In this document: positions 25,911-32,313 of the stretch, piece after piece
Position numbering within the stretch: the first letter of the stretch is position 1
Layout: each line of letters begins with the position of its first letter
Assembly: GCA_002783865.1 (NCBI GenBank)
Contig: PFJE01000089.1
Span: 683 to 36,410 of the forward strand
Reading direction: 5' to 3'
DNA length: 35,728 nucleotides
From: Sphingomonadales bacterium CG_4_10_14_3_um_filter_58_15
GTDB lineage: Bacteria > Pseudomonadota > Alphaproteobacteria > Sphingomonadales > Sphingomonadaceae
The notes under the pieces: model-generated
What the model was told of the DNA's origin: nothing
The model's database searches: none
What the model saw: the letters and a program-made list of their open reading frames with translations, nothing else
Program-made: the position numbers and the translations under genes

Positions 25911-26249
25911 AGCCCTGCCCTTCTGTGTATTGCTGTTCTACATCAGTAATATGCCACAGGATTTTTGGCAACAACATTTCCCGCTTCCCCTGCTTTAATC
26001 ACTCAGTTAAACGGGCAGGATGATTCAGCAGCTGATCCACCGCAAATCCGGCCTGTCCTACATTCCCGGGCCGCGCTATGCTGCCGGGATGTTGGATTCT
26101 CGCCTCGCCCTGCTACAGGAACCAGACGTCCTGAAACATTACACTAGGCGTGGGTGCGACCCTGCGCGAACCCCTGTTTTCTGCGGCGTGCAGACAAAAA
26201 TTGCAGAAAATAAAACTATGTCTTTCTGTAAAGATGACCGGACCCAAAA
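25911..26249 (+). other. 339-base region upstream of the carboxylase gene, with leader ORF
   Basis: It lies between the divergent EreA-like and acyl-CoA carboxylase genes. Its notable content is a plus-strand open frame (from ATG 26020 or 26089) that ends in a TGA overlapping the carboxylase ATG (26250-26253). It contains the conserved block at 26131-26232. The carboxylase has no good ribosome site of its own (GATGACCGGACCCAAAA precedes the ATG). Confidence 0.6.
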
Positions 26250-26253
26250 ATGA
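26089..26253 (+). CDS. Possible leader peptide coupled to acyl-CoA carboxylase beta (copy A)
   Basis: From the ATG at 26089 this is a 54-residue frame; an in-frame ATG at 26020 would make 77. The start choice is uncertain, and neither has a strong ribosome site. Its core (LKHYTRRGCDPARTPVFCGV, then QTKIAENKTMSFCK) matches a second ORF at 31796-32095 upstream of the haloalkane dehalogenase with 19 of 34 identical residues and no gaps. It ends ATGA with the carboxylase start, so re-initiation could feed the main gene. No known family is recognised. A non-coding repeat or promoter element that is open by chance is the alternative. Confidence 0.4.
   Translation: MLDSRLALLQEPDVLKHYTRRGCDPARTPVFCGVQTKIAENKTMSFCKDDRTQK
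26131..26232 (+). repeat. Dispersed 102-bp conserved leader element, copy A
   Basis: CTGAAACATTACACTAGG at the left end and ATTGCAGAAAATAAAA near the right end are shared with the copy at 31925-32026 (minus strand). A hand count gives about 69 of 102 identical bases, no insertions or deletions, and several synonymous differences. The sequence TTGCAGAAA..TTTCTGTAA within it is an inverted repeat. It points towards the carboxylase gene. Confidence 0.75.
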
Positions 26254-27773
26254 CCTGGCAACCCGAACTCGAAGAACTGGCCGAGCGCCAACGTCTCGCC
26301 GAAAAAATGGGCGGCGAGGAAAAGGTCTCGCGCCAGCATGGCCGCGGCAAGCTCGATGCCCGGGCCCGGATCGCCGGCATTGTCGATGAAGGCAGCTTTC
26401 GCGAGATCGGCAAGATTGCCGGGCGCGGCACCTATGCCGAGGATGGGACGTTCGAGGATTTCGCGCCGAGCAACCTGATCTTTGGCCGCGCCAATATCGA
26501 GGGCCGCCCGGTCGTCGCCAGCGCCGATGATTTCACCGTCCGCGGCGGGGCAGCCGATGCGGCGCTGCACCGGAAATTCACCCAGTGCGAGAAAATGGCG
26601 CACACGATGGGCATCCCGATGATCCGGATGATCGATGGCACCGGCGGTGGCGGCTCGGTCAAGAGCCTCGAGGATATGGGCTTCACCTATGTTCCCGCGG
26701 TGCCGGGCTGGGAGGATATCATCAAGAATCTCGACAACGTGCCGGTGGTGGCGCTGGCGCTGGGACCGACGGCGGGGATGGGCGCGGCGCGCACCGTCGC
26801 CAGCCATTATTCGATCATGGTCAGGGGCCTGTCACAGATTTTCGCCGCCGGCCCGGCGGTCGCCGCGGCGATCGGCGACACGCTTACCAAGGAGCAACTC
26901 GGCGGCTCCGATATCCACGCGACCAATGGCGTCGTCGACGAGGAAGTCGCCAGCGAGGCGGAAGCCTTTGTCACCGCGCGCAAATTCCTCTCCTATCTGC
27001 CGAGCAATGTGAACCAGAAGGCCGCGCGCACCGAGAATTGGGACCCGGTCGACCGCCGCGACGAAAGCCTGCTTTCCGCCGTGCCGCGCGCCGACAAGCA
27101 GGTCTATTCGATGCGCAAGATCATGACCTCGGTGTTCGACGAGGGCTCGGTCTTCGAAATGGGCAAACGCTGGGGCCGCGCCGCGATCACCGCCTTTGCC
27201 CGGCTCGACGGCTGGCCGGTGGCGGTGCTCGCCAATGATCCGTCCTTTCTCGGCGGTTCCTGGGAGGCCAAGTCATCGGAAAAGGTCGAGCGCTTCGCCA
27301 AGCTGGCCGAACAATTCCATCTGCCGGTGGTCCATCTGGTTGACAATCCCGGCTTCATGATCGGCGCCGAGGCCGAGCGCACCGGCACCATCCGCTATGG
27401 CGTGCAGGCGATGAACGCGGTCTACCGGGCGACCGTGCCCTGGGCCAGCGTCATCGTCCGCCGCGCCTATGGCATCGCCGGCAGCGCGATGAGCAATGCC
27501 GAAAATTTCCAGTATCGCTTCGCCTGGCCGTCTGGCGACTGGGGCTCGCTGCCGATCGCCGGCGGGCTCGAGGTCGCCTACAAGAGCGATATCGAAGGGT
27601 CCGAGGATCCCGTAGCGCGCCTGGCCGAGATCAAGGCCAAGCTCGACAAGGTCACCTCCCCGTTCCGCACCGCCGAACAGTTCAGCGTCGAGGATATCAT
27701 CGACCCGCGCGACACACGGCCGCTGCTGTGCGAATTTGCCGATCTGGCATGGCGGAAACTGGGCATCAATTGA
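26250..27773 (+). CDS. Acyl-CoA carboxylase beta subunit (propionyl-CoA/methylcrotonyl-type carboxyltransferase)
   Basis: The carboxyltransferase subunit of a biotin-dependent acyl-CoA carboxylase. The 507-residue product has the usual two crotonase-like halves: HGRGKLDARARIAGIVDEGSF near the start, IRMIDGTGGGGSVKSLEDMG and ALGPTAGMGAARTVASHYSIM in the first, and LVDNPGFMIGAEAERTGTIRYG with ASVIVRRAYGIAGSAMSNAE in the second. The latter glycine-rich loops form the acyl-CoA and biotin oxyanion holes. No biotin carboxylase subunit is encoded nearby, so the partner is elsewhere. The acyl substrate cannot be fixed. Its ATG lacks a clear Shine-Dalgarno and overlaps the stop of a conserved leader ORF, suggesting translational coupling. 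Confidence 0.9.
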   Translation: MTWQPELEELAERQRLAEKMGGEEKVSRQHGRGKLDARARIAGIVDEGSFREIGKIAGRGTYAEDGTFEDFAPSNLIFGRANIEGRPVVASADDFTVRGGAADAALHRKFTQCEKMAHTMGIPMIRMIDGTGGGGSVKSLEDMGFTYVPAVPGWEDIIKNLDNVPVVALALGPTAGMGAARTVASHYSIMVRGLSQIFAAGPAVAAAIGDTLTKEQLGGSDIHATNGVVDEEVASEAEAFVTARKFLSYLPSNVNQKAARTENWDPVDRRDESLLSAVPRADKQVYSMRKIMTSVFDEGSVFEMGKRWGRAAITAFARLDGWPVAVLANDPSFLGGSWEAKSSEKVERFAKLAEQFHLPVVHLVDNPGFMIGAEAERTGTIRYGVQAMNAVYRATVPWASVIVRRAYGIAGSAMSNAENFQYRFAWPSGDWGSLPIAGGLEVAYKSDIEGSEDPVARLAEIKAKLDKVTSPFRTAEQFSVEDIIDPRDTRPLLCEFADLAWRKLGIN

Positions 27774-30878: not shown

Positions 30879-31799
30879 TCAGATATCGCCAAATGACTTG
30901 AGCGCCGCCGGCGCAACAATGTCGCCCCATTCCTGCACAAAATGACCGGCTTCCTCGATCAGCAGCGGCTCCGGACAGCCCCTGATCAGGCCGTGCATCA
31001 TCTTCATCACCGGCGGGCCGAGTACCGGGTCGGAACCGCCGATCGCCATGAAGCTGGGGCCGGACCATTCGCTGCTCCAGAAGGCAGCCGCCTGCTTGCT
31101 GACCGCGACACCATCCATGTCGGGCTCGACCGGCACCAGCGCCGGAAAGGTCCGCGCGCCGGCCTGATAGCTGTCATCCGGATAGGGCGCGTTATAGGCG
31201 GCGATCTCGGCCTCGCTCATCTCCGGCGTGCCGCGCGCGATAATCTCGCCGGCGTCAAAGTCCGGCACGGTCAGCGCATATTGCTTCCACGCGTTGAAGC
31301 CGTCCCCCGCCCCGGTGCCCAGACCCAGGGCGGTGTTCATGATGATCAGCCGCGACAGACGTGCCTTGAAATCCGAGTCCACCGGCAGCGTCAACCCGAT
31401 CAGCCCGCCCCAGTCCTGCACCACCAGCGTGATATTGATCAGCTCAAGCCGCTCGACCAGCGCCAATATATGATTGCGGTGAAAGTCGAACGAATAGCTG
31501 GCGAGATCGGTTGGCTTGTCGGAGCGGCCAAAACCGAAGAAATCCGGACAGACCACCCGCGCGCCGGTGGCGGTAAAATGCGGGATCATCTTGCGGTAGA
31601 GAAAGGACCAGCTCGGCTCACCATGCAGGCACAGGAAGGTGGTCTCCGCATCCGCTGGTCCGGTATCGACCCAGGCGGCACGCAGCCCTTCATAGCCCGG
31701 CAGATCATCGGCATAATCGACCGGATAATCAAAATCCGGCAGATTGGCGAAGCGTTCCTCCGGCGTGCGGACGGCGGCGATAGCGGGGGTGGTGATCAT
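30879..31799 (-). CDS. Haloalkane dehalogenase, HLD-I (DhlA-like) subfamily
   Basis: An alpha/beta-hydrolase of 306 residues that releases halide from haloalkanes. It has the oxyanion motif HGEPSWSFLYRKM, the nucleophile D129 in VVQDWGG (W130 for halide), a second likely halide Trp in NAWKQYALTVPDF (W171), the acid D257 in IGGSDPVLGP, and the base H286 in EEAGHFVQEWG. The cap region (MSEAEIAAYNAPYPDDSYQAGA) closely follows DhlA. All five catalytic positions are kept, so activity is likely; the substrate range is unknown. The ATG at 31799 has GAGAGGA ten bases upstream, yet also overlaps the TGA of the upstream conserved leader ORF (ATGA). No dehalogenation partners are next to it. Confidence 0.93.
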   Translation of the reverse strand: MITTPAIAAVRTPEERFANLPDFDYPVDYADDLPGYEGLRAAWVDTGPADAETTFLCLHGEPSWSFLYRKMIPHFTATGARVVCPDFFGFGRSDKPTDLASYSFDFHRNHILALVERLELINITLVVQDWGGLIGLTLPVDSDFKARLSRLIIMNTALGLGTGAGDGFNAWKQYALTVPDFDAGEIIARGTPEMSEAEIAAYNAPYPDDSYQAGARTFPALVPVEPDMDGVAVSKQAAAFWSSEWSGPSFMAIGGSDPVLGPPVMKMMHGLIRGCPEPLLIEEAGHFVQEWGDIVAPAALKSFGDI

Positions 31800-32095
31800 G
31801 GCGGGAAATCCTCTCTAATTTTGCGGCCAAATCTGTCAGGCTGAGGGGAGCCGGTCAAGCGCCAATGGAATTCCTGGGATAACCGGCGCGCAAAATTGCC
31901 CGCATGGAAATTGCCCGCGAAAACTTTACACAGACCGATCCTTTTATTTTCTGTAATCTTTGCCTGAAACCCGCGAAATACAGGGATATTGGCGGCACCA
32001 AAGCCGCTCCTAGTGTAACCTTTCAAATGACCGGGCGGAAAGCGCCAACAGTCAGGAGCAGAGAAACTGAAAAGACTCATCACAATGCGGAGCAT
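31796..32095 (-). CDS. Possible leader ORF coupled to the dehalogenase (copy B)
   Basis: A 99-residue frame whose stop overlaps the dehalogenase ATG. Residues 24-57 (LKGYTRSGFGAANIPVFRGF, then QAKITENKRIGLCK) match the copy-A leader; the part after it is unlike copy A and may be coding only by chance. The start is uncertain; no strong ribosome site is seen before 32095. No known family is recognised. Confidence 0.35.
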   Translation of the reverse strand: MLRIVMSLFSFSAPDCWRFPPGHLKGYTRSGFGAANIPVFRGFQAKITENKRIGLCKVFAGNFHAGNFARRLSQEFHWRLTGSPQPDRFGRKIREDFPP

Positions 32096-32313
32096 AAGCG
32101 CGATGGGGTGGTGTAGGAAAGCGGGTTTTCAACCGCAGACCAAGCCGACCGGCGAACCGGGGCGCTGGCCCCATGACGGAACCAGCAAGACGCCGAAGCG
32201 CCAACAGAACATCTGCCGCGGCCGCCGGAAAATCGACAGGCTGTGACCATGAGCATAAAGGTCACCCAGCGAATCAGCTATATTCTCTCCTGATACAAGA
32301 AAGGAGAAGTATC
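31800..32313. other. 514-base divergent intergenic region
   Basis: It separates the dehalogenase (minus) from a hypothetical gene (plus). It holds the copy-B leader element and about 290 bases on the other side without a supported gene. The frame of the hypothetical gene extends back to 32173, but without a ribosome site. Confidence 0.6.
31925..32026 (-). repeat. Dispersed 102-bp conserved leader element, copy B
   Basis: It is the minus-strand counterpart of 26131-26232, sharing GGTTACACTAGG at its start and ATTACAGAAAATAAAA near its end. It lies 125 bases before the dehalogenase start and points towards it. Confidence 0.75.

Follow-up and report, generated by a model that had tools for sequence, protein, structure and literature searches.

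One of about a dozen: the block before an acyl-CoA carboxylase gene belongs to a family of fixed-architecture DNA modules in Parasphingorhabdus-type bacteria

The window analysed here, a 35,728-nucleotide stretch of DNA from a Sphingomonadales bacterium, carries two look-alike blocks upstream of two metabolic genes, and the question is whether such a block encodes a leader peptide, acts as RNA, moves as an element or serves as a binding site. The pairing of two 34-codon blocks, as described in the initial annotation, is exact: positions 26131-26232 (+) and 31925-32026, the latter read on the minus strand, are identical at 69 of 102 bases, and their translations (copy 1 and copy 2) at 19 of 34 residues, both without gaps. 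The runner-up ungapped match to copy 2, with both strands of the window searched, reached 44 of 102 bases, and BLAST within the genome itself recovered the second copy with an E-value of 2.9e-4. Copy 1 lies upstream of a carboxyltransferase gene (26250) and copy 2, on the minus strand, upstream of an alpha/beta hydrolase gene starting at 31799; as had been claimed, the frame ends at both places in a TGA that overlaps the ATG of the next gene. A search of the window against Rfam at gathering scores gave no match. The features of the window are as follows.

25993..26023 (+): dyad-bearing stretch TTAATCACTCAGTTAA immediately 5' of the leader ATG, delimited partly by eye
26020..26253 (+): copy 1 leader, an ORF of 77 codons, its TGA overlapping the carboxylase ATG; frame open, peptide unconserved
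26053..26084 (+): promoter-like stretch of copy 1 (-35/-10-like), CTGTCCTACA...CTATGCTGC, from the TCCTAYA survey of 81 copies
26133..26148 (+): box 1 of copy 1, GAAACATTACACTAGG
26195..26215 (+): box 2 of copy 1, CAAAAATTGCAGAAAATAAAA
26225..26236 (+): box 3 of copy 1, TCTGTAAAGATG, an inverted half-site; the gap from box 2 to TGTAAAG is fixed at 11 bases
26250..27773 (+): gene for a carboxyltransferase (PF01039) of the acyl-CoA carboxylase type
30879..31799 (-): alpha/beta hydrolase gene (PF00561; the dehalogenase of the initial annotation), downstream of copy 2
31828..31859 (-): separate promoter-like stretch of the hydrolase gene, CTTGACC...CTGACAG, partly by eye; similar in module-less relatives
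31922..31934 (-): box 3 of copy 2, TCTGTGTAAAGTT
31942..31962 (-): box 2 of copy 2, CAAAGATTACAGAAAATAAAA
32009..32024 (-): box 1 of copy 2, GAAAGGTTACACTAGG
32090..32121 (-): promoter-like stretch of copy 2, CTTTCCTACA...CTTATGCTC

The block is one of about a dozen similar DNA modules spread over the genome of this Parasphingorhabdus-type bacterium. Searching with the longest conserved word (CAAARRTYRCRSAAAAKAAWA, 11 bases and TGTAAAG, up to two mismatches allowed), we found nine matches in the window's own genome and 95 in 16 of 32 genomes of the genus, several of which are incomplete, while the reversed pattern gave none in the same 32 genomes. Retrieval succeeded for 91 of the 95 matches, the missing four all being from G037; the 92 sequences obtained comprise these 91 and one truncated duplicate, and the 91 less six HTH gene ends and four sequences lacking an in-register box 1 gave 81 copies, of which the 77 free of any shift served for the counts of stops and covariation. 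A sequence-only model (R1), built from 65 copies with those of G002 and G015 excluded, extended the family to 150 matches in 22 of the 32 genomes. In 16 genomes one of these matches is partial and coincides with the 3' end of the gene encoding HTH-163, an HTH protein. The proposal of a dispersed 5' element thus stood as far as dispersal, conservation and the lack of an Rfam match in the window are concerned, but the genome holds 11 full copies and one partial copy by R1, not two. A degenerate-core scan of 84,980 species genomes returned 34 stretches, which R1 sorted into 27 full or nearly full modules, five HTH-end sites and two core-only matches. The latter, in an archaeal bin and a Kapaibacterium, look like chance; the remaining records are labelled Parasphingorhabdus, Sphingorhabdus, Sphingopyxis sp., Sphingomonadaceae or Sphingomonadales. 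Among titles and abstract openings of papers sought on the repeat and the HTH proteins, none describes this family. What began as two look-alike blocks has become a set of fixed-architecture sites across the whole genome, about a dozen in each, with a candidate protein.

The module measures about 104 bp; its three boxes keep a fixed spacing and follow a promoter-like CTTTCCTACA...TATNNT. From 5' to 3' the order is CTKTCCTACA, about 15 bases, TATNNT, then box 1 and, after a free spacer, GGAAATCTGCGGCTTTGGGG and box 2, with another 11 free bases before box 3; many copies have, between promoter and box 1, a hairpin-forming segment and a boxA-like sequence GGCTCTTTGACAATNTGGAT. The word TCCTAYA occurs within 450 bp upstream of box 1 in 80 of the 81 copies and downstream in seven. 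Box 1 (AAGGTYACAC) stands 62 bases upstream in 81 of 85 stand-alone copies, 77 of them without any shift, and in a MAFFT alignment 65 copies fill exactly 104 columns with no gap. All three boxes are variants of one half-site, AAGGTYACA in boxes 1 and 2 and the inverted AACTTTACA in box 3. Across 13 orthologous groups the mean distance is 0.11 in the boxes and 0.40 in the spacers, with the boxes lower in 13 of 13, a comparison that is biased because copies were found through boxes 2 and 3, and much less so for box 1 (four of the 85 stand-alone copies lacked it). Conserved boxes, free spacers and fixed spacing are the marks of an operator family, and together with the inverted half-sites they indicate DNA-binding sites. 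The two copies in the window represent two subtypes, both without boxA. A long palindromic repeat, GGCTCGCACGAAGACAC...CTTCGTGTCTTCGTGCGAG, often lies 3' of box 3 (L013, L014, L015, L184 and others).

The candidate for the protein comes from six core matches that are not stand-alone modules: they consist of the right-hand part alone, located where a gene encoding an HTH protein (about 160 residues) ends. Orthologues of this protein, HTH-163, were read in 24 of the 32 genomes; the stop codon falls inside a recognisable box 2-3 pair in 16 of the 24, the other eight having a different 3' end. At the site of G031 the pair forms a perfect dyad, GGTCACA...TGTGACC. The promoter word TTTCCTACA precedes the gene start by 36-37 bases in 10 of the 12 genes checked (of 24), and the position of the ATG 36-37 bases past TTTCCTACA (L140-L148) suggests a leaderless mRNA. 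The DNA-binding part of the protein matches the profile of a phage small terminase, phrog_4044, with E 3.2e-5 for HTH-163 (163 aa) and E 1.8e-12 for a paralogue (260 aa). Pfam offered no family for the 163-aa protein up to E 1, NCBIfam had nothing above its cut-off for the HTH proteins, one scan of viral contigs with the HTH alignment confirmed no relative, and a search of solved structures yielded no relevant one.

At about even confidence, we read the modules as genus-restricted, small, dispersed transcription units that carry the cognate sites of a domesticated HTH protein and work as a roadblock or operator, with a coupled frame at the carboxylase. Each unit would run from a promoter (CTTTCCTACA and TATNNT, about 15 bases apart) through a short stretch that is mostly non-coding to a cluster of three sites at fixed spacing. 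HTH-163, a protein of phage small-terminase type whose own gene has the same kind of promoter and ends inside a box 2-3 pair, probably binds these sites. The bound protein would most likely block or end the transcription that leaves the unit, as a roadblock or an operator; short transcripts would stop at the sites and, where a gene lies in line, as the carboxylase does, read-through would be controlled. At the carboxylase itself the unit separates an upstream ATG from the gene, and the open frame would be selected so that ribosomes can reach the ATG in the overlap and start again there. It counts against this reading that regulatory sites do not usually lie about 100 bp past their promoter and where a gene ends.

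The distribution of protein and modules bears on the proposed pairing in both directions, and all such associations of presence and absence follow the tree of one genus. G002, a complete genome, is without HTH-163 yet holds seven full module copies, while G004, G031, G016, G043 and G036 have HTH-163 with its site but only zero to two full copies. Six G002 copies, paired by eye with G015 copies, all score lower than their counterparts, in line with decay, although in one lineage. Since G002, and G011 for a second protein described below, keep copies without the cognate HTH, the HTH protein may be replaceable or may not be the binder.

The HTH-163 gene has paralogues, and most of the paralogue genes read are also preceded by the promoter word. 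Several of them carry other repeats past the stop codon, namely GTGTGACCCGTGTGACCC, GTGTAAAGTTTGTAAAGTTC or, slightly further down, GAACTTTGACGAACTTTG. In G030 the HTH paralogue units (L222, L224, L226, L241) keep the promoter nearly unchanged, with repeats of the TGTGAGAATTGTGTGAACTTTG type lying on the stop codon or past it; at L222 part of the HTH is missing. At L244 (G009) an HTH paralogue is interrupted by an in-frame stop codon.

Two of these words are themselves dispersed. GTGTAAAGTTTGTAAAGTTC occurs up to 12 times per genome in 17 of the 32 genomes, and a third motif, GAACTTTGACRAACTTTG (GAACTTTGACGAACTTTG beside HTH genes), up to 14 times in 14 of the 32; the reversed controls gave no match for either. 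Beside the 3' end of an HTH gene GTGTAAAGTTTGTAAAGTTC was found at L245, L251, L255, L256, L259 and L263, and dispersed at L324-L353; the third motif stands on the HTH gene side at L250, L258, L260 and L262, and dispersed at L294-L323. For each motif 30 loci were read, taken from a larger number of matches (for the third motif, L296 and L310 overlap at one place). A same-strand TCCTAYA lies upstream at 27 of the 30 loci for GTGTAAAGTTTGTAAAGTTC and at 12 of 30 for GAACTTTGACRAACTTTG, and downstream at none of the 30 for either. The stretch with the promoter word also holds a module in one of the 27 cases for GTGTAAAGTTTGTAAAGTTC and in six of the 12 for GAACTTTGACRAACTTTG, so that promoter words of its own are left to GAACTTTGACRAACTTTG at only 6 of 30 loci. 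The third motif was seen below a module at eight of the 30 loci read.

The link between these motifs and their HTH genes was examined in two ways. At the variable letter R of the third motif, the majority letter of the dispersed copies equals the letter beside the HTH gene in all eight pairable genomes of the 14 that bear the motif, four of the eight pairings being by coordinates only and the rarer letter occurring in two genomes only. For the second motif, at least two GTGTAAAGTTTGTAAAGTTC copies are present in nine of the ten genomes with the second HTH type and in five of the 22 without it (Fisher p 0.0006; the cut was set once the scores were known, and kinship is uncorrected). Single genomes depart from this rule both ways: G011, which is complete, lacks an HTH of GTGTAAAGTTTGTAAAGTTC type yet has seven motif copies, and G006 has the second HTH type and no GTGTAAAGTTTGTAAAGTTC copy. 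A wider proposal is of fairly low probability: in these sphingomonads a domesticated set of HTH proteins resembling small terminases, with a DNA word private to each, would mark, all along the chromosome, where tiny transcription units and each protein's own gene end, either for protein-dependent ending or gating of transcription or as a relic of sequence-directed DNA packaging, and the carboxylase would have been drawn in through the evolution of a coupled leader frame.

Among the alternatives to the binding-site reading, a multicopy family of small non-coding RNAs, in which a promoter and a boxA-like antitermination sequence would lead to conserved boxes acting as RNA, is unlikely, if still the best placed of the three. 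The promoter word is common to the copies; a boxA-like GGCTCTTTGACA can be parsed after it in 52 of the 81, and 38 of these 52 have a segment of 20-43 bases between the -10 element and boxA with a mean folding z of -1.6. The next gene is moreover convergent at 13 of 29 sites, as in stand-alone RNA genes. The conserved block itself argues the other way. The covariation that the initial annotation had asked about did not appear as a standout helix in the ungapped block of 77 copies, the best five-pair helix having a summed excess of 0.32 (a value that carries no significance test), although a few single column pairs exceed the expected pairing by 0.1-0.2. Single-sequence folds of the copies were inconsistent, and alifold on the gappy alignment of 81 copies gave nothing and was uninformative. 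Relative to boxes 1 and 2, box 3 is inverted in the manner of DNA sites; the box 2-3 pair stands alone at the ends of HTH genes, and the two copies in the window do without boxA.

Somewhat less probable still is that the modules are old non-autonomous mobile elements sharing their ends, CTTTCCTACA on the left and the box motif on the right, with an element that encodes the HTH protein. Both ends are indeed common to the HTH-163 unit and the non-coding units, and near-identical HTH units occupy several places in G030. Against this, no transposase was seen, and the copies, grouped by neighbours, fall into 29 sites, 13 of which contain two to nine loci with shared neighbours between genomes. There is no clear target duplication, the module-less sites being too diverged to show any. 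The interior of the non-coding unit is unlike a derivative of the HTH gene, and words of the CTTTCCTACA type also stand directly before ordinary genes.

Both copies in the window point towards downstream genes. Family-wide this is not the rule: at the 29 sites the next downstream gene lies on the same strand in 15 cases and on the opposite strand in 13, with none in one, counts that are approximate because a crude ORF chooser supplied the neighbours. With the next gene on either strand, the module is not generally a leader of the downstream gene. Nor is the block protein-coding in general. Each of two mostly open forward frames contains stops in 17-18 of the 77 copies (18 in the frame of the initial annotation), and the third frame in all 77. 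Column-shuffled copies had stops in means of 27.4 and 29.5, above the observed numbers in both frames alike; since the deficit is the same in both, it is no sign of coding, and the protein-coding interpretation was rejected.

At the carboxylase the picture is more specific. The module lies directly before this gene in eight species, with a distance from CTGTCCTACA to the overlapping stop of 201 bases in six and 216 in two, all multiples of three. In seven of the eight the frame runs without a stop as far as the overlapping TGA, that of G031 (L017) stopping shortly before; the other two frames are open in two and none of six carboxylase copies. In a neutral simulation on the six-copy tree (70 invariant columns fixed, HKY, kappa 2, starting from one of the six open sequences), all six stayed open in none of 1500 runs. 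The peptide is another matter. A dN/dS below 1 had been anticipated; the mean pN/pS of 11 pairs of carboxylase copies is 0.89 in frame, against 0.85 and 1.13 in the other two frames (L043 is not in this table, its frame having been read separately), a value of unrestrained amino-acid change. An open frame with an unconserved peptide points to selection on the open frame, that is, on translation up to the gene start. The carboxylase leader would thus separate translational coupling from peptide function.

A translationally coupled leader peptide, functional as peptide or through its translation at all copies, is a very improbable account of the family, for although the carboxylase frame and its TGA/ATG overlap in seven of eight species with no neutral run staying open speak for it, in-frame stops in 18 of 77 copies, a pN/pS near 1, a hydrolase overlap in three of eight genomes and a next gene on either strand all speak against. 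The initial annotation had also stated that frame-breaking copies, a dN/dS near 1 and placement on either strand would reduce the block to a neutral repeat; all three occur family-wide, but the boxes are strongly conserved and the family is not neutral.

Returning to the binding-site reading with its coupled frame at one locus, a coupled leader is likely a local property of the carboxylase copy, the only one with signs, in its reading frame, of a translated and coupled leader. In relatives without a module there, the carboxylase ATG follows directly after a TTAA...TTAA dyad (TTAAYCNNTCGGTTAA) in five of six read by eye; in the window a related dyad precedes the leader ATG instead. Ribosomes would enter at the leader ATG and restart at the ATGA. 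We also considered that a mobile element had inserted into the carboxylase start codon with duplication of ATGA. This was rejected: the outlying G030 has a copy there as well (L357), ATGA belongs to every carboxylase start read, and G015 and G002 each carry a related copy that precedes the carboxylase by about 1.4 kb.

How does this arrangement compare with known systems? It resembles coupled leader ORFs that work by ATGA termination-reinitiation in having, at the carboxylase, a short open frame kept by selection with its TGA over the next ATG; it differs in that the module peptide is unconserved and the arrangement is confined to one locus, the other copies having no in-line gene or open frame. 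CIR and RIME are dispersed intergenic repeats of alphaproteobacteria. They share with the module a size of about 100-200 bp, an intergenic location, about ten copies per genome and restriction to a clade, but the module has a promoter word and fixed-spacing sites and is tied to an HTH gene that bears the same site. Phage small terminases (TerS) have their pac or cos site next to or inside their own gene. The HTH proteins are alike in matching phrog_4044 and in the presumed site at the end of their own gene; unlike TerS, HTH-163 is encoded on the chromosome and has paralogues as well as numerous dispersed sites. As a new family of dispersed modules for which there is a plausible cognate protein, this would be ordinary in kind, a site and a DNA-binding protein; its packaging as small transcription units and the presence of the site where the protein's own gene ends are unusual.

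At the hydrolase, the claim of a coupled leader did not hold as it did at the carboxylase, where the frame is kept open to the ATG. The TGA/ATG overlap is present in three of eight module-bearing genomes, the window's genome among them, the distance from core to ATG varies between 139 and 163 bases across genomes, and the gene has an apparent promoter of its own closer than the module. For these reasons chance is the best account of the overlap. Where the standard module is absent, two stretches upstream of the hydrolase (L205, L206) contain GGGTGACACAGTGTCACC and GGGTCACCTTTGTCACCC, which may be diverged boxes.
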